IMG/VR virus record: IMGVR_UViG_3300034121_002124
Span: 1-37,890 of that record
DNA: 37,890 nt
Origin: a virus
Reading direction: 5' to 3' (one strand)
A model generated the notes under the pieces. That model was not told the DNA's origin. It saw nothing but the letters and a program-made list of their open reading frames with translations, and ran no database searches. The position numbers were made by a program, and so were the translations under genes. Positions within the stretch are counted from its first letter, which is position 1. Each line of letters starts with the position of its first letter. This document shows, one piece after another, positions 4,006 to 37,890 of this stretch.

Positions 4006-4656
4006 CTAAAACATTCGGAGCTGAGATATGAAGTTTGCGTACCTTTTTTCGTGAGCTGCAAAGTAGTCCGCGTCCAACTCGTAACCCCAAAAATCGATGC
4101 CTGCCTTGTTTGCCGCGATTCTTGAGGAGCCGCTGCCGAGGTGCGTATCCAACACCTTTTGCCCGGGCTTTGCATAAGTTGCGAAAATCCAGTCGTACAG
4201 GGCGATGGGCTTTTGGGTCGGGTGGATGCGGCACATTGTTTGCCGTGTAGCCCATTGGTTGTTTTGATGCTTCCAAAGACTTTCTCTGCAAATTTTGGCC
4301 TGCATTTTTGCAAAACTTGTCCATGCCAATTCGTGCATTCCAAAGGACAAGCCGTTGGTTACATTTTTGTCCCAAACAATCCATTTAGCCGACGGCGGCA
4401 AATGCTCGGTAAAATAGTTGCCTCCCCAAATTATTTGGTGTTGAGATACACGGAATAGTTCGGCGAAATAGGACGCATTTGGTATGGCATTGTCCCAATT
4501 GGCCTTTTTGTATTTTGTGTATTTCGATGTTTTATACCCTGGATTATCCATACCTATCCCATACGGCGGATCCACCACGGCCAAATCAAAGAACTTATCG
4601 GGGAACTCGGCCATTGCGTCCATGCAATCGCGGAGATATGCGCGTTGGTCAATCAT
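4006..4656 (-). CDS. DNA adenine methyltransferase (beta class, N6), orphan
   Basis: 216 residues. DPPY at 29-32 is the catalytic motif IV of N6-adenine or N4-cytosine methyltransferases. The SAM-binding motif lies near the C-terminus (VLDTHLGSGSSRIAA), so the order IV then I marks a beta-class enzyme. The usual motif I DxFxGSGT is here DTHLGSGS, a mild deviation. HPTQKPIALYDWIF between them is typical of the family. No restriction endonuclease gene is visible, so it is probably an orphan enzyme that protects phage DNA from host restriction; the recognition site cannot be read from the sequence. ATG overlaps the thyX stop (4653-4656) and the gene is last in the minus operon. Confidence 0.85.
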   Translation of the reverse strand: MIDQRAYLRDCMDAMAEFPDKFFDLAVVDPPYGIGMDNPGYKTSKYTKYKKANWDNAIPNASYFAELFRVSQHQIIWGGNYFTEHLPPSAKWIVWDKNVTNGLSFGMHELAWTSFAKMQAKICRESLWKHQNNQWATRQTMCRIHPTQKPIALYDWIFATYAKPGQKVLDTHLGSGSSRIAANKAGIDFWGYELDADYFAAHEKRYANFISQLRMF

Positions 4657-5273
4657 AACCCAAAGGCTTTAATCGTGTGCGCAAACGGGTTTCCCTCGAT
4701 GTTTTTAACCAATCGCAGCATCTCGCCGGCCAGCATCCGCACTTCGCGCTGAGCCTCCGGCTTGTTGCGCAACCGCTGGAAGTGAACGAAACTGCGGAAG
4801 TTGAACATAATATCGAGTGTGAGCTGGTTGTTCATGGTCTTGAAGTAACGCGCGGATTCTTTGGCGCGGGCACGGCCCAGGATAGGCTCAAGCTCACGCA
4901 GGGCCGTGCGATACAGATAATCGCCTACGCTCCGATGTTCGTCAAGTTTGCGTATCCAGCCGGATGGCCAGTCGAACGGCAGGTAATTCCGGTCTTCTTT
5001 GAGCTCTTTATACCGTGCGCTTTCAGCGTTCACGCTCACGCCTATGCGGTGTTTCAGCAAGTGGATGTGCGTCGCCTGATCCACCGTACAAAGGAAGTGC
5101 AGACTGGATTTTTCAAAGGGCGTTTCGTGGCCCTTTTCCGCGAGCATTTTCAGCAGCGCGGGTATGCGATCTCGCTTTTCGGGGGTCAACTCCCGGCTGG
5201 TGGACGTCCATGCGGACAACGCGTGTTCGAGGTCGCCACCATAGTGGCCTAAAAGTTCAACTGTATTTGTCAT
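4653..5273 (-). CDS. thyX: FAD-dependent thymidylate synthase ThyX
   Basis: 206 residues. GHETPFEKSSLHFL followed by HIHLLKHRIGVSVNAESARY matches the FAD and dUMP binding region of ThyX, and NFRSFVHFQRLRNKPEAQREV the conserved C-terminal helix. ThyX makes dTMP from dUMP using methylene-tetrahydrofolate and reduced flavin, supplying thymidine for phage replication. The signature normally begins RHR; here it begins KHR and the spacing to the serine appears one residue longer, a variation I believe is seen in some phage enzymes. Its start is overlapped by a 28-codon membrane ORF and its stop overlaps the methyltransferase start, so it is part of one minus-strand operon. Confidence 0.87.
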   Translation of the reverse strand: MTNTVELLGHYGGDLEHALSAWTSTSRELTPEKRDRIPALLKMLAEKGHETPFEKSSLHFLCTVDQATHIHLLKHRIGVSVNAESARYKELKEDRNYLPFDWPSGWIRKLDEHRSVGDYLYRTALRELEPILGRARAKESARYFKTMNNQLTLDIMFNFRSFVHFQRLRNKPEAQREVRMLAGEMLRLVKNIEGNPFAHTIKAFGL

Positions 5274-5343
5274 GACGGCGTGTTTTTTCGGAATCAGCAG
5301 ATAGAAACCAGCAAATGAAAGCGACGGCGATAATTTCGATCAT
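5257..5343 (-). CDS. Micro-ORF, 28-aa single-pass membrane peptide
   Basis: Minus-strand ATG at 5343-5341 lies in an ATGA overlap with the stop of the 475-aa membrane gene. It encodes 28 residues: a hydrophobic segment MIEIIAVAFICWFLS followed by a charged tail with Lys, Arg and His. The stop overlaps the first codons of thyX by 17 bases. The two overlaps fill the gap in the operon exactly, which is the main evidence. It may be a real membrane peptide or a coupling ORF that carries ribosomes to thyX. No family is recognised. Confidence 0.45.
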   Translation of the reverse strand: MIEIIAVAFICWFLSADSEKTRRHDKYS

Positions 5344-6767
5344 GGCTTGAATGTTTTAGGGTTCGCCCCGGCCAATCTCGACCGGGTGCGCGTCTGCACG
5401 CCGGCGGCGTACAGGATAGATTCGATGCGCTCGATAGCCCGGACGGCGGTTGCGATGCTGCGCTTGATCGGTTCGCCCCGGTTCGCCCTATCTAAGTCGC
5501 TCCAATAGGCCCGTAATTGCTTCCTAAGAGCCTCGATTTCGTAAACGCTACGTGTGGGCAGCCCGTTGGTTTTCGTCGAATACGCGACTTGTGAGGGACT
5601 TCCAAGGGGTATATGGCAATCGAATATACCAAAGGTGGCCACGTCCACCGCGCGCGGGGTGCTGGGGGCAACCTCGCCACCGCTCCAAACAATTTCCCGC
5701 GGAGTGCGGGGCGCTGGTTCGGGGCGCAAAACCGGTGCGGTAACGACCGGATCCAGTTCCAACGTCGGTGCAACGGTCTCCCGAACGGCCACCGCTGGCT
5801 TAGTTTGATCCGAAAAGTTCTGCGAAAACGGTCGGGCGGTCGGGATGGATGCGGTCGGGGCTACTTCAGCCCGCACGGGGGCACGATAGCCAGTTCCAGC
5901 TGGCCGGGTGAAGAATCCAAACGGCGACCGCTGGGCACCCGTAAATACGGCTTTGTCCGGTGTTTGCGCGGAGCCCTTGGCATACACTTCCTCAAGTGCG
6001 TACAGAAGAGACGAAAGGATTAGCAACACCGTCGAAGCAATGGATAGCCACAACTGCAACGAATTCAAAGTGTGTGTTGCGGTGCTGTATTTGCCGAGCT
6101 TCGTTTCGTACTCCGCAACGGCTAATCGGCCTGCGGTCGCTGTTGCATCTTGTTGCGCTTGCAAATTTGTTGCTATCTGTTGCTCAATCTGCAGGCGTTG
6201 CGCTGCGTATTTGTCGGTGACGGCTTTCCTCTTTTTGTTGACCTCCGTTGCGGCCCAATTGTTGCCGCCTTTGGCCATTGCAGACAACTCGGGGTTAACG
6301 ACCGCAGCCGCCAGTTCCCGTTTTTCTGCGGAGCGGAGGCGTGCCAGCTGGTCGTTAAGCCCCTTGTTCACGTCGGCGATTTGCAGGGCGGTGGATACGT
6401 CGGCTTTCTTCAGCTCGGGCACGGTTGTTACCGCGTCCGTGACGTAATGCCGCCCATAGATGGTGAGGCCCAAGGTGCCGAAGACCTGCATGGTGAGAAA
6501 CAGGAGGGACCAAGACATAACCAACCGCTTGAAGGTGCCTTGGGTGCCATCGTAATAGCGGCCAAAGAACGTTTGGAGGCCCCTCATTAGCCCGTAATCA
6601 ATCGCCATCGATATAACGCCGACGGCTGCGATTCCGAGCGCCGCTGCCAGCTGCCACGGGGCAAACTGGATAAAGGTGGAGTACACGGCGAAAAACACCA
6701 CAAAGGCGCTATCGATTGCACCGTACATCGAACAGCCGTACGCTGTCATTTTATAGTATTTTTTCAT
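5340..6767 (-). CDS. Membrane protein with coiled coil and Pro-rich tail (475 aa)
   Basis: 475 residues from the ATG at 6767; upstream in-frame codons overlap the previous gene and are not used. Hydrophobic segments at about 17-37, 39-56, 83-104 and 238-257 look like membrane helices. Residues 115-235 are rich in Ala, Gln, Lys and Glu with heptad-like spacing (a coiled coil or helical hairpin between helices 3 and 4). The last 200 residues are Pro/Ala/Thr rich and end in a helical basic region (EIEALRKQLRAYWSDLDRANRG). I do not recognise the family. It belongs to the HTH-led operon with ThyX and the methyltransferase. Roles in membrane-linked replication or superinfection exclusion are possible but unsupported. 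The start is preceded by the C-rich motif CAACCCCGCAAACATG. Confidence 0.7.
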   Translation of the reverse strand: MKKYYKMTAYGCSMYGAIDSAFVVFFAVYSTFIQFAPWQLAAALGIAAVGVISMAIDYGLMRGLQTFFGRYYDGTQGTFKRLVMSWSLLFLTMQVFGTLGLTIYGRHYVTDAVTTVPELKKADVSTALQIADVNKGLNDQLARLRSAEKRELAAAVVNPELSAMAKGGNNWAATEVNKKRKAVTDKYAAQRLQIEQQIATNLQAQQDATATAGRLAVAEYETKLGKYSTATHTLNSLQLWLSIASTVLLILSSLLYALEEVYAKGSAQTPDKAVFTGAQRSPFGFFTRPAGTGYRAPVRAEVAPTASIPTARPFSQNFSDQTKPAVAVRETVAPTLELDPVVTAPVLRPEPAPRTPREIVWSGGEVAPSTPRAVDVATFGIFDCHIPLGSPSQVAYSTKTNGLPTRSVYEIEALRKQLRAYWSDLDRANRGEPIKRSIATAVRAIERIESILYAAGVQTRTRSRLAGANPKTFKP

Positions 6768-9399: not shown

Positions 9400-9750
9400 A
9401 TGAACATTCAAAAGTATTACGACCAAGATGGCAACGCCACGCATTACGTTTGCCGCGCGCTGCTGTCATTTCACAACACGGCCACGCCTTGGATGGAGCG
9501 TGTACGCCAAGCGACGCACACCAACGTGGCATTGGTCAAAAACATCGAACTACAATACATGAGTGGCGTGCATCGTGCCAACGGCGCCGGAGAAGCGTCC
9601 GTTTGGCTGATGATTCCCGTGGACCGCGAAATCTCCAGCGTGCTGCACACGATTTCTGACTTTAGCAACCGCCTTGGAATCGATGGAATTACCGCGGCCG
9701 TCGCCATTTTTGACCTAAACTACCTCACCACCAAAAAAATCGACCAGTAA
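9400..9750 (+). CDS. Hypothetical protein before recombinase (116 aa)
   Basis: 116 residues, first gene of early operon 2, with TAATG overlap to the Bet recombinase gene. Contains MNIQKYYDQDGNATHYVCRALLSF and VWLMIPVDREISSVLHTI; mixed alpha/beta, no known motif. Its coupling to Bet suggests a role in recombination or replication, but no function is recognised. Confidence 0.6.
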   Translation: MNIQKYYDQDGNATHYVCRALLSFHNTATPWMERVRQATHTNVALVKNIELQYMSGVHRANGAGEASVWLMIPVDREISSVLHTISDFSNRLGIDGITAAVAIFDLNYLTTKKIDQ

Positions 9751-10487
9751 TGTCTAATCTCAGCACCCTTATCAACGTCACCAACGACGACCTTGCAGCC
9801 CTGGCGGCTGCGGGTATTATTCCGAGCGACTGCCCACCGGCCCAAGTCGCCATTTTCGCCCAACTCTGCGGAGCCGTCCAGCTGGACCCACGGCTCAAAG
9901 AAATTGAGCTAATTCCGCTTGGCGGCGGCAAGTATAGCCCCTATGTGCGCAAAGACGGGCTTCGCAAAATAGCCGCCCGTACTGGCGATTTCGCGGGTAT
10001 TGAGCCCATTCGCTTCGACGTGCTGCCCAATGGTGGCTACAAAACCGCCGCACAATTTGACGCTGGCCAAAAGCCACGGACGGCCACCTGTACGGTGTAC
10101 CGCTTTGTCCGCGGCGAGAAGTGCGCTTTCACGGTCACTGTATCCATGAGTGAGTTTAACAAAGGGCGCGGGCAATGGGGATCAATGCCAATCCAAATGC
10201 TCAGCAAAGTTGCCGAGGCCCATGCCCTGCGCATGGCTTTTCCCGAGGCCACCAACGGCTTGCTTGGTGAGGGCGAACTTGAGGTAGCCCGCGATATCGC
10301 GGCGCCCGCACGTGGCCCCGTCCTGCCAGCGCTCGAAATTGGCAGCCCAAAGTTCCAGCAGGTCGTGGTGGCCCTCGCCACGGATAAGGCGACCTTGGAA
10401 CAAGTTTGGACAAAGTTCGCCAAAGATGAAGCCGTGCAGGGGGCTTTGATCGATGCCGTTAACGAATATCAATCGCATACGCCGTGA
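9750..10487 (+). CDS. bet: Phage recombination protein Bet/RecT family
   Basis: 245 residues. LCGAVQLDPRLKEIELIPLGGGKYSPYVRKDGLRKIAARTGDF (about 39-81) and QWGSMPIQMLSKVAEAHALRMAFPEA (about 140-165) match the core of the Bet/RecT single-strand annealing protein family. These proteins anneal homologous single strands and work with a 5'-3' exonuclease, here probably the gene at 10740. Together they form a Red-like recombination pair for repair, concatemer formation or gene exchange. The tail after residue 185 is less conserved. The stop is shared with the GTG start of the next gene (GTGA). Confidence 0.85.
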   Translation: MSNLSTLINVTNDDLAALAAAGIIPSDCPPAQVAIFAQLCGAVQLDPRLKEIELIPLGGGKYSPYVRKDGLRKIAARTGDFAGIEPIRFDVLPNGGYKTAAQFDAGQKPRTATCTVYRFVRGEKCAFTVTVSMSEFNKGRGQWGSMPIQMLSKVAEAHALRMAFPEATNGLLGEGELEVARDIAAPARGPVLPALEIGSPKFQQVVVALATDKATLEQVWTKFAKDEAVQGALIDAVNEYQSHTP

Positions 10488-10747
10488 AGTATATTCCCCA
10501 GCGCTACAAGTACCACCTGCCCGTTGTCGGTTACAAAGGCAAGAATAATCTGGCCGAGTTCCGACAATGGGCCGCAGGGCAAGGAATAACTTTCGAAATC
10601 GAACAACGCCGCTTCTCCGTAAAAGTGACGTTTGCCCACCTGCCAAACGACCCGTGGACCGGTCCCGACCTTGCTGAGGCGGCAATCTACTGGGTCGGCG
10701 AAATTATAGATTACCTTAAATCCAAAAAATCCAAATCCCATGTTTGA
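10484..10747 (+). CDS. Hypothetical protein between Bet and exonuclease (87 aa)
   Basis: 87 residues from GTG 10484, chosen for the GTGA overlap with the bet stop. Basic with beta-rich segments (ITFEIEQRRFSVKVTF) and a Lys/Ser end (KSKKSKS). Sandwiched between two recombination genes with overlaps on both sides, so a part in the same process is likely; no family recognised. Confidence 0.6.
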   Translation: MKYIPQRYKYHLPVVGYKGKNNLAEFRQWAAGQGITFEIEQRRFSVKVTFAHLPNDPWTGPDLAEAAIYWVGEIIDYLKSKKSKSHV

Positions 10748-11435
10748 CTTCAAAATCCGCTGCTCTGCCATTGGCAAAATCATGACCGACCCCCGCAGCA
10801 AGTCGGAGCCCCTCTCCGAGACCACCAAGACCTATTGCCGTACGTGGCTAACGGAAAAGGTGTACGACCGCCGCATTGACGTGACCAGTAAGCAGATGGA
10901 CAAAGGCAATACGATGGAAGGCGTGGCAATTGATTTTGCCGCCAACATTGTTGAACCAGGTGCGTTGTGGTTCAAAAACGAGGACAAGTTCAGCGATGAG
11001 TACATGGCAGGCACACCAGACGTACTCACCGCCGACACGGTGTTCGACATCAAATGCCCGTGGAGCTTCGCCACGTTCCCCCTGTTCGAAACGGAGCTGC
11101 CGAACAAAGAGTACTACTGGCAGTTGCAAGGATACATGGCCCTCACCGGTCGCCAGTCGGCTGCAATTCTGTACGTTCTCACGGATGCCCCCGAGCACAT
11201 CCTGCTTGACGAAGCCCGCAAGCTGAGCTACCAGCGCGGTTTGGGCGGTGACACAACCGAAACGATTGATGAAGTCCGCCACCTGCTCACGTATCCAGAC
11301 GTTGCCGACGGCCTCAAGTTCAAACGCTTCGATGTCGGCCGCGACGAAGAGGCTATCCAAAAAATCCGCGACCGTGTATCTTTGTGCCGTGAGTACATAC
11401 AGTCGCTTTTGGTTAAGATTGAAAATGTGGTGTAG
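10740..11435 (+). CDS. YqaJ-like viral recombinase exonuclease
   Basis: 231 residues. The PD-(D/E)XK nuclease core is visible: Glu60 in GNTMEG, Asp94 in GTPDVL, then VFDIKCPW with Asp103 and Lys105, and WQLQGYMALTG (127-137). This is the arrangement of lambda-exonuclease/YqaJ enzymes that resect duplex ends to make 3' tails for Bet. It lies two genes after bet with an 8-base overlap to the gene before. Size is normal for the family. It is the last protein gene before the 816-base RNA and origin region. Confidence 0.85.
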   Translation: MFDFKIRCSAIGKIMTDPRSKSEPLSETTKTYCRTWLTEKVYDRRIDVTSKQMDKGNTMEGVAIDFAANIVEPGALWFKNEDKFSDEYMAGTPDVLTADTVFDIKCPWSFATFPLFETELPNKEYYWQLQGYMALTGRQSAAILYVLTDAPEHILLDEARKLSYQRGLGGDTTETIDEVRHLLTYPDVADGLKFKRFDVGRDEEAIQKIRDRVSLCREYIQSLLVKIENVV

Positions 11436-11453
11436 TAAAAAAGTAAGTGTCAA

Positions 11454-11483
11454 ACCGCCGTAGGTGAACGCCTGCGGCGGTTA
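11454..11483 (+). ncRNA. Hairpin H1 of RNA unit 1
   Basis: A 13-bp stem, arms 11454-11466 and 11471-11483, closed by a GAAC tetraloop. Core arm sequence CCGCCGTAGGT pairs with GCCTGCGGCGG. It lies 5 bases before the first tRNA-like gene. Hairpin H2 has the same core 160 bases later with a G-C to C-G exchange, which supports the fold. Confidence 0.7.
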
Positions 11484-11488
11484 TTTCG

Positions 11489-11570
11489 ACCACATGGTGC
11501 AAGGGTAGCACGTTCAGCAATTCTGGCTTGGCTTAATGAAAAATGCGGGTTCGACCCCCGCTGTGGTCAC
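11489..11570 (+). tRNA. tRNA-like gene 1 with 18-base anticodon loop
   Basis: A full cloverleaf can be drawn: acceptor GACCACA (11489-11495) with TGTGGTC (11563-11569), D arm GTGC/GCAC with loop AAGGGTA, T arm GCGGG/CCCGC with loop TTCGACC, discriminator A, CCA not encoded. The anticodon stem TTCA (11514-11517) pairs with TGAA (11538-11541), next to one G-A mismatch, and leaves an 18-base loop CAATTCTGGCTTGGCTTA instead of the normal 7. An inner 7-base loop AATTCTG with an imperfect stem is an alternative, but it lacks U33. No anticodon can be named. Could be an intron-bearing, degenerate or repurposed tRNA. Lies between recombination and replication genes. Confidence 0.7.
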
Positions 11571-11615
11571 GAAGGATATTAGGCTATTAGAGGTTATTAG
11601 AGAGAGAAAGTCTAA

Positions 11616-11641
11616 CCGCCGTAGCTGCACGGTTGCGGCGG
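11616..11641 (+). ncRNA. Hairpin H2 of RNA unit 2
   Basis: An 11-bp stem with arms 11616-11626 and 11631-11641 and loop GCAC. Core CCGCCGTAG/CGGCGG is shared with H1 at a 160-base offset; one inner pair is exchanged (G-C to C-G). It ends 7 bases before tRNA-like gene 2. Confidence 0.65.
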
Positions 11642-11648
11642 GATTTAT

Positions 11649-11731
11649 GGTGAGGTAGTGCAAGGGTAGCACGTTGACCGGGTTCAGGTGATACTGTGTC
11701 AAAAGCGCCGGTTCGACCCCGGCCCTCGCCG
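11649..11731 (+). tRNA. tRNA-like gene 2 with 19-base anticodon loop
   Basis: Cloverleaf with acceptor GGTGAGG (11649-11655) and CCTCGCC (11724-11730), one G-T pair; D arm GTGC AAGGGTA GCAC identical to gene 1; T arm GCCGG/CCGGC with loop TTCGACC; discriminator G, no encoded CCA. Anticodon stem TTGAC (11674-11678) pairs perfectly with GTCAA (11698-11702) around a 19-base loop CGGGTTCAGGTGATACTGT. Compared with gene 1, the third stem pair changes from C-G to G-C, a compensatory change. The variable region is 4 bases. No anticodon can be read with a normal 7-base loop. Probably a tandem duplicate of gene 1. Confidence 0.7.
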
Positions 11732-11770
11732 CAGAAGATACGCTTAGTTAAGATAAAAGGAATGTAGCGA

Positions 11771-11792
11771 CAGCTGGCCGAACGGTCGGCTG
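11771..11792 (+). terminator. Hairpin after the tRNA-like pair, possible terminator
   Basis: CAGCTGGCC (11771-11779) pairs with GGTCGGCTG (11784-11792), loop GAAC, followed by TTTGCGTTTG. The T tract is short, so it may be a processing signal or a weak terminator for the tRNA-like transcript. The GAAC loop is the same as in H1. Confidence 0.5.
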
Positions 11793-11878
11793 TTTGCGTT
11801 TGTAGGGTTGGGGTAGTGCGGATGCTTGTTTCCACGTTTTGCCAAAACGTCCTTTCACTTTGCTGAAAACCAGCAAGG

Positions 11879-12015
11879 CGGTACGCCCAAAAGGTGCTGA
11901 CCGATAAGCCCAAAAAGGGCAGACCCAATGCCCTAATGGTGCTGACCGGTACGCCCAAAAGGTGCTGACCGATAAGCCCAAAAAGGGCAAAGCGGTAAGC
12001 CCAAAAGGAGCCGAC
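11879..12015 (+). repeat. Six tandem 23-bp iterons (putative origin)
   Basis: Units begin at 11879, 11902, 11925 (22 bp), 11947, 11970 and 11993. Consensus core is GGTAMGCCCAAAAGG followed by a GCnGAC segment. Units 1-2 and 4-5 share an exact 42-base repeat (11880-11921 and 11948-11989). Such direct repeats directly upstream of a replication initiator gene are the usual binding sites of the initiator. They are too short and have no spacers, so this is not a CRISPR array. Confidence 0.85.
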
Positions 12016-12025
12016 CCAATACAAT

Positions 12026-12152: not shown

Positions 12153-12160
12153 CATCAACA

Positions 12161-12251
12161 ATCCGCGGATGACTACCACCGCCCGCGGGTTTCCCTCCAA
12201 ATCCGAGATGGGGCCGAACGTGTGGTAGCGTTTTGGCCCCGTTCTTTTTTT
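12161..12251 (+). promoter_or_regulatory. Attenuator-like leader with two complementary hairpin loops
   Basis: Hairpin A: arms 12161-12168 and 12183-12190 (core CCGCGG/CCGCGG), 14-base loop containing CTACCAC (12173-12179). Hairpin B: GGGGCC (12210-12215) with GGCCCC (12235-12240), inner stem AACG/CGTT, 8-base loop containing GTGGTAG (12222-12228), followed by GTTCTTTTTTT up to the ATG at 12252. Hairpin B is an intrinsic terminator by form. The two loops are perfect 7-base complements, so a kissing complex or an antiterminator pairing is possible. Confidence 0.7.
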
Positions 12252-35123: not shown

Positions 35124-35146
35124 CACCTCGCTGTTTTCCAACCTTA

Positions 35147-35176
35147 GGCCCGCTCGGTTTCGGGCGGGCCTTTTTT
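35147..35176 (+). terminator. Strong intrinsic terminator of head operon
   Basis: GGCCCGCTCG (35147-35156) pairs with CGGGCGGGCC (35161-35170), one G-T pair, loop GTTT, followed by TTTTTT (35171-35176). Confidence 0.9.
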
Positions 35177-35190: not shown

Positions 35191-36573
35191 ATGTTCGGAC
35201 CCGATTATAGCGCATACAGTTTCTTCGGGGCACAACCCCGGACGGACGCGCAATTCAGCCAGCAGTTCCAAATGGCGACATCGCAGCCCAATCCGGTGCC
35301 GGCGATGATTCGCGATACAAAGGAGCTGCAAACAATTTTCGATTACCTCGGCATCGTGCCCCCGTGGAAGGACGGCGATTTTTACGCGTTCAACATGATG
35401 AGGTACTTTGAGCGGCTGGGAGAGAACTCCGAGAGCCATTCGAGCGCGATTAAGGGTATTGCCATGGCTGCGTTCGGCGACCGTGCGCAAATTGGTGTAT
35501 CCAATTACGATGGGTTTGGCGATGAGGTTCGCGAGGCCACGGCACAAGAACTGGCCGCAACGGGCGAATGGCTGCTCTCCCTCGGGGTAACGGCTACCGA
35601 AGTGGCCGATATGAATCGGATGCTGTGGCGCTCGCTGAAAGAAAGCGGTAACGCCTATCTGCGTTGCCGTGTGGCCAGCGTAAACGGTGTCCAAAGGGCG
35701 CACTTGACCCTATTGCCGTACACAAATTGCGCGTATTCGCGTGACTTGTTTTACGGCAACGAACCGATGTTGTACTACAGCGACATTTGGTCAATCAGCT
35801 ATTGGGTGTACAACCCTCCCCGGCTGTACGCCGTGACCCGTAACGGGGTGCCGAACTTTCAAGAATACGCCGACGGAACGCTCGAGACGGTCTTTCACTT
35901 TACCGAGAAAACCCCTAAGACGCAATGGTATGGGGCTCCCGACACGCTTGGGGCGACGGCGTGGATGTTCTACGAGACCCAACAATCGGATGCGCTGGTA
36001 CGGCAGGCAGCTAACCGCTGGCTTGGCACTATGCTCTTCGTAACGCAGGCCCCGGATCCCATGGAAATGGCAGAGGTGAGCGAAGAGGAGATGGTGCAGC
36101 ACCTGCAAAAAACCCAGAACAACATCGTGAACGCGCTAACCATGCAAGGCCAAAACCGTGCAGGCATTGGCGTGGTGCAATATCCGCATGGCAGCGAACG
36201 CCCGGAGGCTATCCGGTTGGAGCCTATGACGGACCACCAATACATAACAAGTACAGGCGCAATGGCACGGGAAAAAATCTATGGTGCGCATGGCTACACG
36301 CCTATCCTCAACGGCGAAATTCAGGCGCGCACATCGCTGGGCGGCAACCTGCTGATTGACCAGCTGCGGGTGACGGACGTGTTGACCCTGAAGCCCGCTC
36401 AGGACAAAATGCAACGCGTTTGGCAGAGCATTTTTGACGGCCTCGCCGAAGCCACCAACCGCCCGGATATGGCGAATAAGACGCTGTATTTCCGCAGCCC
36501 GGTGCAAACCCTTATCGAACAAATCCTACCCCAACAATCCAATGCCCCAGCCAACGTTGCTTTCATCGAGTGA
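35191..36573 (+). CDS. Portal protein (complete, 460 aa)
   Basis: 460 residues. The N-terminus (residues 1-60) is Pro/Gln/Ser rich with a variable feel; then DYLGIVPPWKDGDFYAFNMMRYFERLGENSESHSSAIKGIAM and VTATEVADMNRMLWRSLKESGNAYLRC match the helical wing and stem of PBSX/HK97-type portals, and the C-terminal clip-like part contains GEIQARTSLGGNLLIDQLRVTD. The protein forms the ring for DNA entry. It sits between the head genes and a connector candidate, although here it comes after the capsid gene, while portal usually precedes protease and capsid. The C-terminal part has a second allele at the left end of the window. Confidence 0.75.
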   Translation: MFGPDYSAYSFFGAQPRTDAQFSQQFQMATSQPNPVPAMIRDTKELQTIFDYLGIVPPWKDGDFYAFNMMRYFERLGENSESHSSAIKGIAMAAFGDRAQIGVSNYDGFGDEVREATAQELAATGEWLLSLGVTATEVADMNRMLWRSLKESGNAYLRCRVASVNGVQRAHLTLLPYTNCAYSRDLFYGNEPMLYYSDIWSISYWVYNPPRLYAVTRNGVPNFQEYADGTLETVFHFTEKTPKTQWYGAPDTLGATAWMFYETQQSDALVRQAANRWLGTMLFVTQAPDPMEMAEVSEEEMVQHLQKTQNNIVNALTMQGQNRAGIGVVQYPHGSERPEAIRLEPMTDHQYITSTGAMAREKIYGAHGYTPILNGEIQARTSLGGNLLIDQLRVTDVLTLKPAQDKMQRVWQSIFDGLAEATNRPDMANKTLYFRSPVQTLIEQILPQQSNAPANVAFIE

Positions 36574-36586
36574 GTGCTTATTTTAC

Positions 36587-37249
36587 GTGAGCCATCACTA
36601 CAGTCTGTCCGCTTCAGACGTGCAGAAACAAATCTTTCTGCAGGAACGCCGCGCCGCGCAAACGGTAATCGGGGCGGACTTTTTTGCCTTGCTATTGGCG
36701 GACGTGTACGATTACACTGGTACTGCGGAATGGGTGCCAGGGACGTATTCGTTTAACCAATTCGTTATCCGCTTCGGGCTGGTTTACCGCTCCGTTATGA
36801 ACGGAAATACATCGGACCCCAACGGTAGCACGACGTGGGTGTTGGCGAATAAATTTGAAACCGCCTGCTACAATTTGCTTTGGGATAACGGACTTGCCAA
36901 CTTCCTATCGAACGTAATCTTTGCCGCCAGTTGCAACTCGATAGCCTACAAAGTAGCTCCGGGGGGTATCGTGCAGATTAACGCACAGGACGCTCAGCAG
37001 GCCGCCATTCAAACGGCGCAAACGGTCGCAACCAAGTATCGAGAAGATGCCAATAGCTGGTGGGAGTTGGCAGCGCAATACGCCGTGGACAATAACGAAA
37101 GTTGCAACGGCGCGTTTGATGAGTTTTTGCCCGTGAAAAAGCACATCGCGTGTACGGCCAACGGTCAAACCGCTCAGCTTGGCAGGGCCCGTAACCGCTA
37201 CTTCTTTGTCGGCACCTCGTTTAACCACCCCAACAACGCTAACTGGTAA
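36587..37249 (+). CDS. Structural protein downstream of portal, second allele
   Basis: 220 residues from GTG 36587, colinear with 941-1603 and with only a few amino-acid differences. Same start context after the portal stop and the same TAATG junction to the next gene. Connector role inferred from position, as for the first allele. Confidence 0.5.
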   Translation: MSHHYSLSASDVQKQIFLQERRAAQTVIGADFFALLLADVYDYTGTAEWVPGTYSFNQFVIRFGLVYRSVMNGNTSDPNGSTTWVLANKFETACYNLLWDNGLANFLSNVIFAASCNSIAYKVAPGGIVQINAQDAQQAAIQTAQTVATKYREDANSWWELAAQYAVDNNESCNGAFDEFLPVKKHIACTANGQTAQLGRARNRYFFVGTSFNHPNNANW

Positions 37250-37488
37250 TGGCTGTTCGTGAGCTTTTAACGGCGGTAATTCGCGCTGGTGGAACGCTGG
37301 TATCGGAGACGGAATATCGCCGCCGTATGGCCATTTGTGAGGCCTGCCAAAACAAAGGCGAGGTAACGGTCTTGGGCGTGGATTTCGCTGGCTGCACGGC
37401 CTGCGGCTGCCCGTTCGTGACCAAGTGCCGCGCTGATTTTCACCCGCTTGACGGGGGCAAAGTAAAATGCCCGGAGGGAAAATGGTAG
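37249..37488 (+). CDS. Cys-rich zinc-binding mini-protein, second allele
   Basis: 79 residues with all cysteines of the copy at 1603-1842 conserved; two residues differ (E/T near position 21 and V/A in CTACGC). The same ATGGTAG overlap links it to the GT25 gene. Confidence 0.65.
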   Translation: MAVRELLTAVIRAGGTLVSETEYRRRMAICEACQNKGEVTVLGVDFAGCTACGCPFVTKCRADFHPLDGGKVKCPEGKW

Positions 37489-37890
37489 CACAAGCTTACA
37501 TAATCAGCCGTATCGGCGACTTTGAGCGCCAACGCTGGGCGATTGACCAAGCGGATTCCCTCGGCGTGGGCTACCGCTTTTTCCCTGCCATGCAGCCCGA
37601 TGGCGTACGTTGGGGAGCGCTCAATACCCGCTTGCGGGGAATGCGCAAAAACGGCGCGTTCGGCTGCTTGCTATCCCATTACCATGTATTGCAGGATGCA
37701 CTGTTGAACGGCACCGGGGCCCTCGTTTTTGAAGACGACTTGCTCCCAATGCCGGGGTTCCAGTTCGACTTTACCGACCTGCCACCGGCTGATATGTACT
37801 TCTTTGGCTGGATAACGTGGGGAGCTGAGGCAAAGGTCACTCCTGTAACCGAGAACTGGCACAAACGGGACAATTTTGCAGGCACCCATT
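37482..37890 (+). CDS. GT25 glycosyltransferase, second allele (truncated by window end)
   Basis: 136 codons from ATG 37482, open to the window end. It contains the GT25 motifs GCLLSH and FEDD as in the copy at 1836-2474. From the codon at 37764 on it is identical to the first copy. The missing C-terminus follows from the first copy if the circular map is correct. Confidence 0.75.
   Translation, partial: MVAQAYIISRIGDFERQRWAIDQADSLGVGYRFFPAMQPDGVRWGALNTRLRGMRKNGAFGCLLSHYHVLQDALLNGTGALVFEDDLLPMPGFQFDFTDLPPADMYFFGWITWGAEAKVTPVTENWHKRDNFAGTH

Follow-up and report, generated by a model that had tools for sequence, protein, structure and literature searches.

The question raised by this locus is what role two tRNA-like RNAs with oversized anticodon loops have between the recombination and replication genes of a phage. 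The window, i.e., the whole stretch of DNA that was analysed, is a 37.9-kb virus record (positions 1-37,890). A gene for a RecT/Bet-like annealing protein (9750-10487) lies near the two RNAs, called t1 and t2 here, and a gene for a RecE-like exonuclease (recE, 10740-11435) ends just 5' of hairpin 1. From recE to the replication initiator gene, which ends at 13331 on the 3' side of t1 and t2, the order is hairpin 1, t1, hairpin 2, t2, then the third hairpin and finally a stretch rich in repeats, with the terminase and tape-measure genes lying 3' of the initiator. Upstream of the initiator there is a promoter-like TATCTTTG, which we take to be of the Bacteroidota type, and the distant RecE relatives that occur in genomes are all from Bacteroidota; the predicted host is a Bacteroidota-type bacterium.

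It is noted that the imperfect repeats (GGTGCTGACCGATAAGCCCAAAAAGGGC...) at 11870-12020, 5' of the initiator gene, are perhaps replication-origin iterons. The initiator leader (12160-12243) contains a pair of hairpins with 7 bases of loop-loop complementarity (CTACCAC/GTGGTAG), the second hairpin being followed by a U-run directly 5' of the start codon. The loop-loop pairing covaries in relatives (CTTCCAC/GTGGAAG, CTGCTAC/GTAGCAG, CTCCTAC/GTAGGAG), and the pattern was found in this clade only, plus one unconvincing match, and never in shuffles; its appearance is that of a kissing-hairpin leader or attenuator of an undescribed kind. In addition, the window ends (1-2244 and 35647-37890) are direct repeats of 2.2 kb that are 89% identical, perhaps reflecting a circular genome joined from two strains.

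Structure of the two hairpin-linked units

An earlier note on this DNA had described two tandem units of a hairpin followed by a cloverleaf, repeating every 160 bases. The two units with their enlarged loops are confirmed, while the period is not, the unit starts being 161 bases apart. All features lie on the + strand. The terminator-like hairpin 1 (11453..11482; AACCGCCGTAGGT-GAAC-GCCTGCGGCGGTT, then ATTTC) lies 3' of recE and 5 bases 5' of t1 (11488..11569), and the equally terminator-like hairpin 2 (11616..11641; CCGCCGTAGCT-GCAC-GGTTGCGGCGG, then GATTTAT) lies 7 bases 5' of t2 (11649..11731). The third hairpin (11769..11794), identical in the relative L003, is likely the terminator closing the element. 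In t1, the acceptor stem GACCACA/TGTGGTC with discriminator A, the D arm (11497-11511) and the T arm (11545-11561) surround an anticodon stem (11513-11516/11537-11540) that has four Watson-Crick pairs plus a G/A mismatch and closes a loop of 18 bases (11518-11535), or of 20 bases with the mismatch included. In t2, the acceptor stem GGTGAGG/CCTCGCC with discriminator G, the D arm (11658-11672) and the T arm (11707-11723) surround an anticodon stem of five pairs (11674-11678/11698-11702) and a loop of 19 bases (11679-11697). The identity of the D arm and its flank between the two units also holds, with the 18-mer GTGCAAGGGTAGCACGTT present at both 11497 and 11658.

The tRNA-like body is borne out by the Rfam tRNA model (RF00005), which matches both units end to end, with 49.5 bits for t2 (E 2e-9) and 48.5 bits for t1 (E 4e-9) relative to the gathering cut-off of 29 bits, and which places the extra bases of both in the anticodon loop. 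No Rfam family besides tRNA matched t1 or t2, and the tmRNA covariance model gave no match to them. Under the default fast filters of Rfam both units are missed, the permissive mode recovering tRNA, and ARAGORN calls them tRNA-??? and tRNA-Asn, with anticodons taken from within the oversized loops. A D-arm/T-arm pattern with an enlarged gap matches twice in the window and never in 100 shuffles, and a descriptor of acceptor plus T arm gives 44 matches, true tRNAs among them, in the fetched DNA of 609 kb and none in a shuffled copy. Folding of the extra bases into a long variable arm, as in type II tRNAs, was rejected because the stem spanning the whole insert covaries.

Covariation, conservation and relatives

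It had been suggested that the related phages be examined for compensatory changes in the acceptor and anticodon stems and for standard 7-base loops. Among the six distinct copies with a full cloverleaf, double compensatory changes are present in all five anticodon-stem pairs (97% of cells paired) and in five of the seven acceptor pairs, with none of 500 shuffles as high, and the whole cloverleaf is 98.4% paired, as compared with 82.5% in shuffles and 35-54% when slid. For the top half, i.e., acceptor plus T arm, 96.2% of cells are paired over 13 elements (those of L016, whose T stem seems bulged, being left aside), with 32 double-change cells versus 10 in shuffles. The covariation of the acceptor and anticodon stems implies constrained RNAs, arisen neither by chance nor by simple decay. 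The large loops of 18 (20 with the mismatch) and 19 bases are thus enclosed by stems with compensatory changes, and the claim that such molecules could not decode normally stands.

Eight further contigs of the clade were obtained by IMG/VR protein searches, with RecE 52-92% identical, and at least one element is present in each of the nine clade phages. L003 and L006 have the t1/t2 pair. L008 has tA with a 6-base loop and then tB with a 7-bp stem enclosing 13 bases, and the element of L018 has a 4-base loop. In L019 and L020 there are minihelices in which the acceptor and T arms are linked only by AATGGTCCC or AATGGTTCA, the D and anticodon arms being absent, and one further copy in L019 is tRNA-Leu-like and carries a long insert. 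L016 has two elements with a rearranged, tmRNA-like middle. In L017, a covariance search of the whole contig found no element behind recE and two further downstream, before the terminase region, where the mimics lie behind a hairpin with a U-run, hairpin and mimics being together at this other place. For RecE relatives at 48% identity or less, no element was found near recE in the stretches fetched. It is also noted that the recE-adjacent stretch 7519-7742 of L017, where mimics are absent, has elements of hairpin plus U-run followed by Bacteroidota-type promoter motifs; these elements would yield two short RNAs of about 80-90 bases.

Based on these comparisons, the feature retained across the clade is the top half, whereas the decoding half varies by several different routes, with loops of 18-20, 13-17, 6 or 4 bases or no arm at all. 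That the conserved portion is the top half of tRNA, and that the hairpin belongs to the terminator type of this phage, had been overlooked before. With the anticodon half enlarged, shrunk or deleted, the mimics would be unable to decode, while with the top half kept they should be handled by the host tRNA-maturation enzymes, and the relatives that have the upper half only, usually right behind a hairpin, point away from protein synthesis and towards a role as processing sites or decoys.

These data bear on three readings. If the extra bases were short introns, spliced out to leave normal decoding tRNAs, their position in the anticodon loop would be explained, and the intron mode of ARAGORN can force an anticodon in several unrelated large-loop cases. 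By contrast, the inserts differ in length and sequence with no common splice signal, homologous elements have loops of 4 or 6 bases or lack the arm, and bacteria are not known to have short tRNA introns that an endonuclease cuts out; the idea, raised in the earlier note, is therefore considered very unlikely, the least probable of all. If the mimics were degenerate pseudogenes, i.e., former phage tRNAs with a decaying anticodon half, the high variability of that half and the tRNA-Leu-like copy of L019 would be expected, but the compensatory changes, the presence in all nine phages and the following comparison make this improbable: between the window and L003, the mimic bodies are 92-100% identical (the t1 anticodon arm excepted) and the hairpins 96-97% (hairpin 1, 96.7%), versus 63% for third codon positions of recE and 53% for the spacer after t1. 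Finally, if the mimics were aminoacyl carriers that do not decode, with a synthetase charging them irrespective of the anticodon and a use other than translation, the canonical top half and T loop would be accounted for, but t1 and t2 have neither G3:U70 nor a long variable arm, and no common identity set is visible because the acceptors vary from copy to copy, as do the discriminators (A in t1, G in t2), so that we regard this reading as very improbable.

The loops themselves are partly conserved. In L003 the t2 loop matches that of the window at 19 of 19 positions, and three phages share the segment GGCTTGGCTT in the loop of t1 while the surrounding stems have changed. Moreover, the window and L006 show zero differences from 11543 to about 14800 (~3.3 kb) and clear divergence on both sides, which places the left crossover inside t1; part of the conservation of mimics and loops may be due to recombination. 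The apparent hypervariability of t1 between these two phages was considered as a hot spot and rejected, since the recombination boundary explains it.

Possible processing, decoy and antisense roles

Nearly all single elements or first tandem members start 2-8 bases 3' of a terminator-like hairpin. The strongest hairpin that ends within 14 bases upstream has a median score of 26 for 15 near-clade elements versus 14 for 483 ordinary phage tRNAs, with a p of 1e-7 that overstates independence because the elements share ancestry; outside the clade the excess is modest (p 0.007, 12 elements, two of them from one contig). The two lowest scores in the near clade belong to second tandem members, and no separate hairpin belongs to those of L008 (tB) and L017 (b). 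The hairpins resemble further terminator-like hairpins that the phage has at 16986-17013 and 35146-35171, and are candidate intrinsic terminators, with strong stems and a U-run that is good in L008 (TTTTTTT) and L017 and partial in the window (ATTTC, GATTTAT). We read them as putative terminators or terminator-like 3' ends.

The best explanation, which we hold tentatively and at slightly less than an even chance, is that the RNase P of the host cleaves t1 and t2, as tRNA mimics that do not decode, and that they act as RNA-processing (punctuation) elements. It draws on the observed structure, conservation and covariation of the mimics, their adjacency to hairpins, their variable anticodon half and their presence in nine of nine clade phages. 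In the proposed mechanism, the recombination transcript would run into the terminator-like hairpin 3' of recE, and the polymerases that read through would produce the mimic. Host RNase P would then cleave at the 5' end of the mimic, a few bases 3' of the hairpin, so that the upstream mRNA would have a terminator-like protected 3' end, remade on the read-through transcripts, and the recombination mRNA would be separated from the replication region. Known substrates of RNase P include precursors of tmRNA, mRNAs and phage (regulatory) RNAs (PMC4919922, PMC12710915), and the structural feature of its substrates, the helix of acceptor plus T arm, is present and covaries in the mimics, cleavage itself being predicted. 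We infer their transcription, RNase P cleavage, CCA addition and purpose. Several points weigh against punctuation. If termination at the hairpin is efficient, little mimic would be produced; the identical t2 loop, which is the main unexplained fact, and the kept GGCTTGGCTT are not needed by punctuation alone; the second tandem members noted above have no own hairpin; and the hairpin adjacency could be a by-product of insertion at operon ends.

Ranked second is the decoy reading, in which sham tRNAs would occupy host defence enzymes that act on the acceptor/T-arm half or the CCA tail and thus spare the real tRNAs. The earlier note had thought of anticodon nucleases among the enzymes to be decoyed. 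This part is unlikely, since the anticodon arm is just what relatives lose or distort, and the enzymes considered here are those that would bind the acceptor/T-arm half. The conserved portion is just the top half. Cas12a3 enzymes, one of which is of Bacteroidetes origin, cut the tails of tRNAs; their contacts are with the acceptor stem and the T arm, and they tolerate the loss of the remaining tRNA loops (PMC12851939). Moreover, tRNA-targeting defences are countered by phage tRNAs (PMC10264068, PMC11555353). By contrast, a decoy leaves the fixed position behind a hairpin without reason, no own promoter is seen upstream of the one or two copies, and no host defence is known for this phage. We consider the decoy possible, although unlikely.

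Ranked third, and more doubtful still, is an antisense or protein-binding RNA whose enlarged loop would do the work, with the tRNA body there for processing and stability. Such a role would explain the identity of the t2 loop and the retention of GGCTTGGCTT, and a phage precedent is the RNase P-processed C4 antisense RNA of P1/P7, as cited in PMC4919922. However, the complementarity of the loops to the phage genome is not above that of shuffled loops, so that the guide role suggested earlier fails for targets in that genome and is retained for other antisense guiding; moreover, the minihelices of L019 and L020 have no loop, and other relatives have unrelated loops. The 16S tail was also considered as a partner for the t2 loop (AGGTGAT) and rejected, as the pairing spans 7 bases only and is not kept in L008 tB (AGGTAAT).

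Occurrence beyond the clade and comparison with known RNAs

A scan of viral contigs with a looser pattern, filtered on acceptor and T-arm pairing, gave, among the matches listed, tRNA-like elements with loops of 14-32 bases in unrelated contigs. At least seven contigs have large loops closed by a stem (L183, L187, L208, L223, L252, L181 and L241), with five paired stem positions in L208, L223 and L252, while chance is still possible for cases with only four. L252 has two such elements, with a hairpin in front of each. Most of the outside-clade cases listed exceed the RF00005 cut-off, L223 and the separate case L046 not being among those. We tentatively propose, at rather less than an even chance, a recurrent undescribed class of phage RNA, composed of a terminator-like hairpin plus a non-decoding tRNA mimic, that would have arisen in several unrelated lineages, its top half recruiting or jamming host tRNA enzymes and its anticodon half evolving freely.

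Other searches gave negative results. The window element had no match in a DNA search of 50,697 phage records, its specific pattern was absent from 395 Bacteroidota genomes, and none of four unrelated large-loop cases led to a cultured phage when used as queries in DNA searches. There was no close RecT relative in cultured phages and no RecT alignment in bacterial genomes; RecE aligned to nine Bacteroidota loci in bacterial genomes, none of which has an element adjoining recE. In the open-access full-text literature searched there was no report of such enlarged loops or of a hairpin-linked class, in agreement with the earlier statement that no such family is described.

Compared with canonical tRNA (RF00005), the mimics share acceptor, D arm, T arm and T loop in tRNA geometry, but their anticodon loop has 18-20 bases rather than 7 with U33, and relatives lose the anticodon and D arms. 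The tRNA-like domain of tmRNA (RF00023) likewise has a top half without a normal anticodon arm, with weak matches to L016 t1 (19.1 bits) and L017 b (17.0 bits; cut-off 47), but the mimics have no message part and no G3:U70 in their acceptors. C4 of P1/P7 and the phi80-induced RNA are, according to PMC4919922 and PMC12710915, also small phage RNAs that are tRNA-like enough for RNase P, whereas the mimics match no Rfam family but tRNA, their cleavage is a prediction and, in contrast with C4 as an antisense RNA, no target for their loops was found in the phage genome. The phage tRNAs of van den Berg 2023 (PMC10264068), which evade anticodon nucleases, are also altered in the anticodon loop, but by base changes and with function proposed to be kept, while the mimic loops are too large to decode. 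tRNAs have also been reported in the GOLLD linker (PMC12286853). Here, L004 has a tRNA-like element (4571-4692) with an anticodon-loop insert of ~58 bases and exactly the same 18-base D-arm sequence as the window, about 500 bases 5' of a GOLLD match (5201-5596, 92 bits, cut-off 150), and a tmRNA match at 9958-10424; by contrast, there is no GOLLD match in the window or its clade.

Non-decoding tRNA-like RNAs as such are known already, as tmRNA, RNase P-processed phage RNAs and viral tRNA-like ends; what has no description in the open-access literature searched is a phage element that links a hairpin to a tRNA mimic with a free anticodon half. Annotation tools mislabel such elements as tRNAs for Asn, Lys or Thr or as undetermined ones. 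The usual view of phage tRNA genes is that they help translation or replace host tRNAs that have been cleaved, and the non-decoding elements of which only the top half is kept show that phages select the tRNA shape for another purpose too. With tRNA-targeting immunity (Cas12a3) present in Bacteroidota, whether that purpose is a processing site or a decoy is now directly testable.
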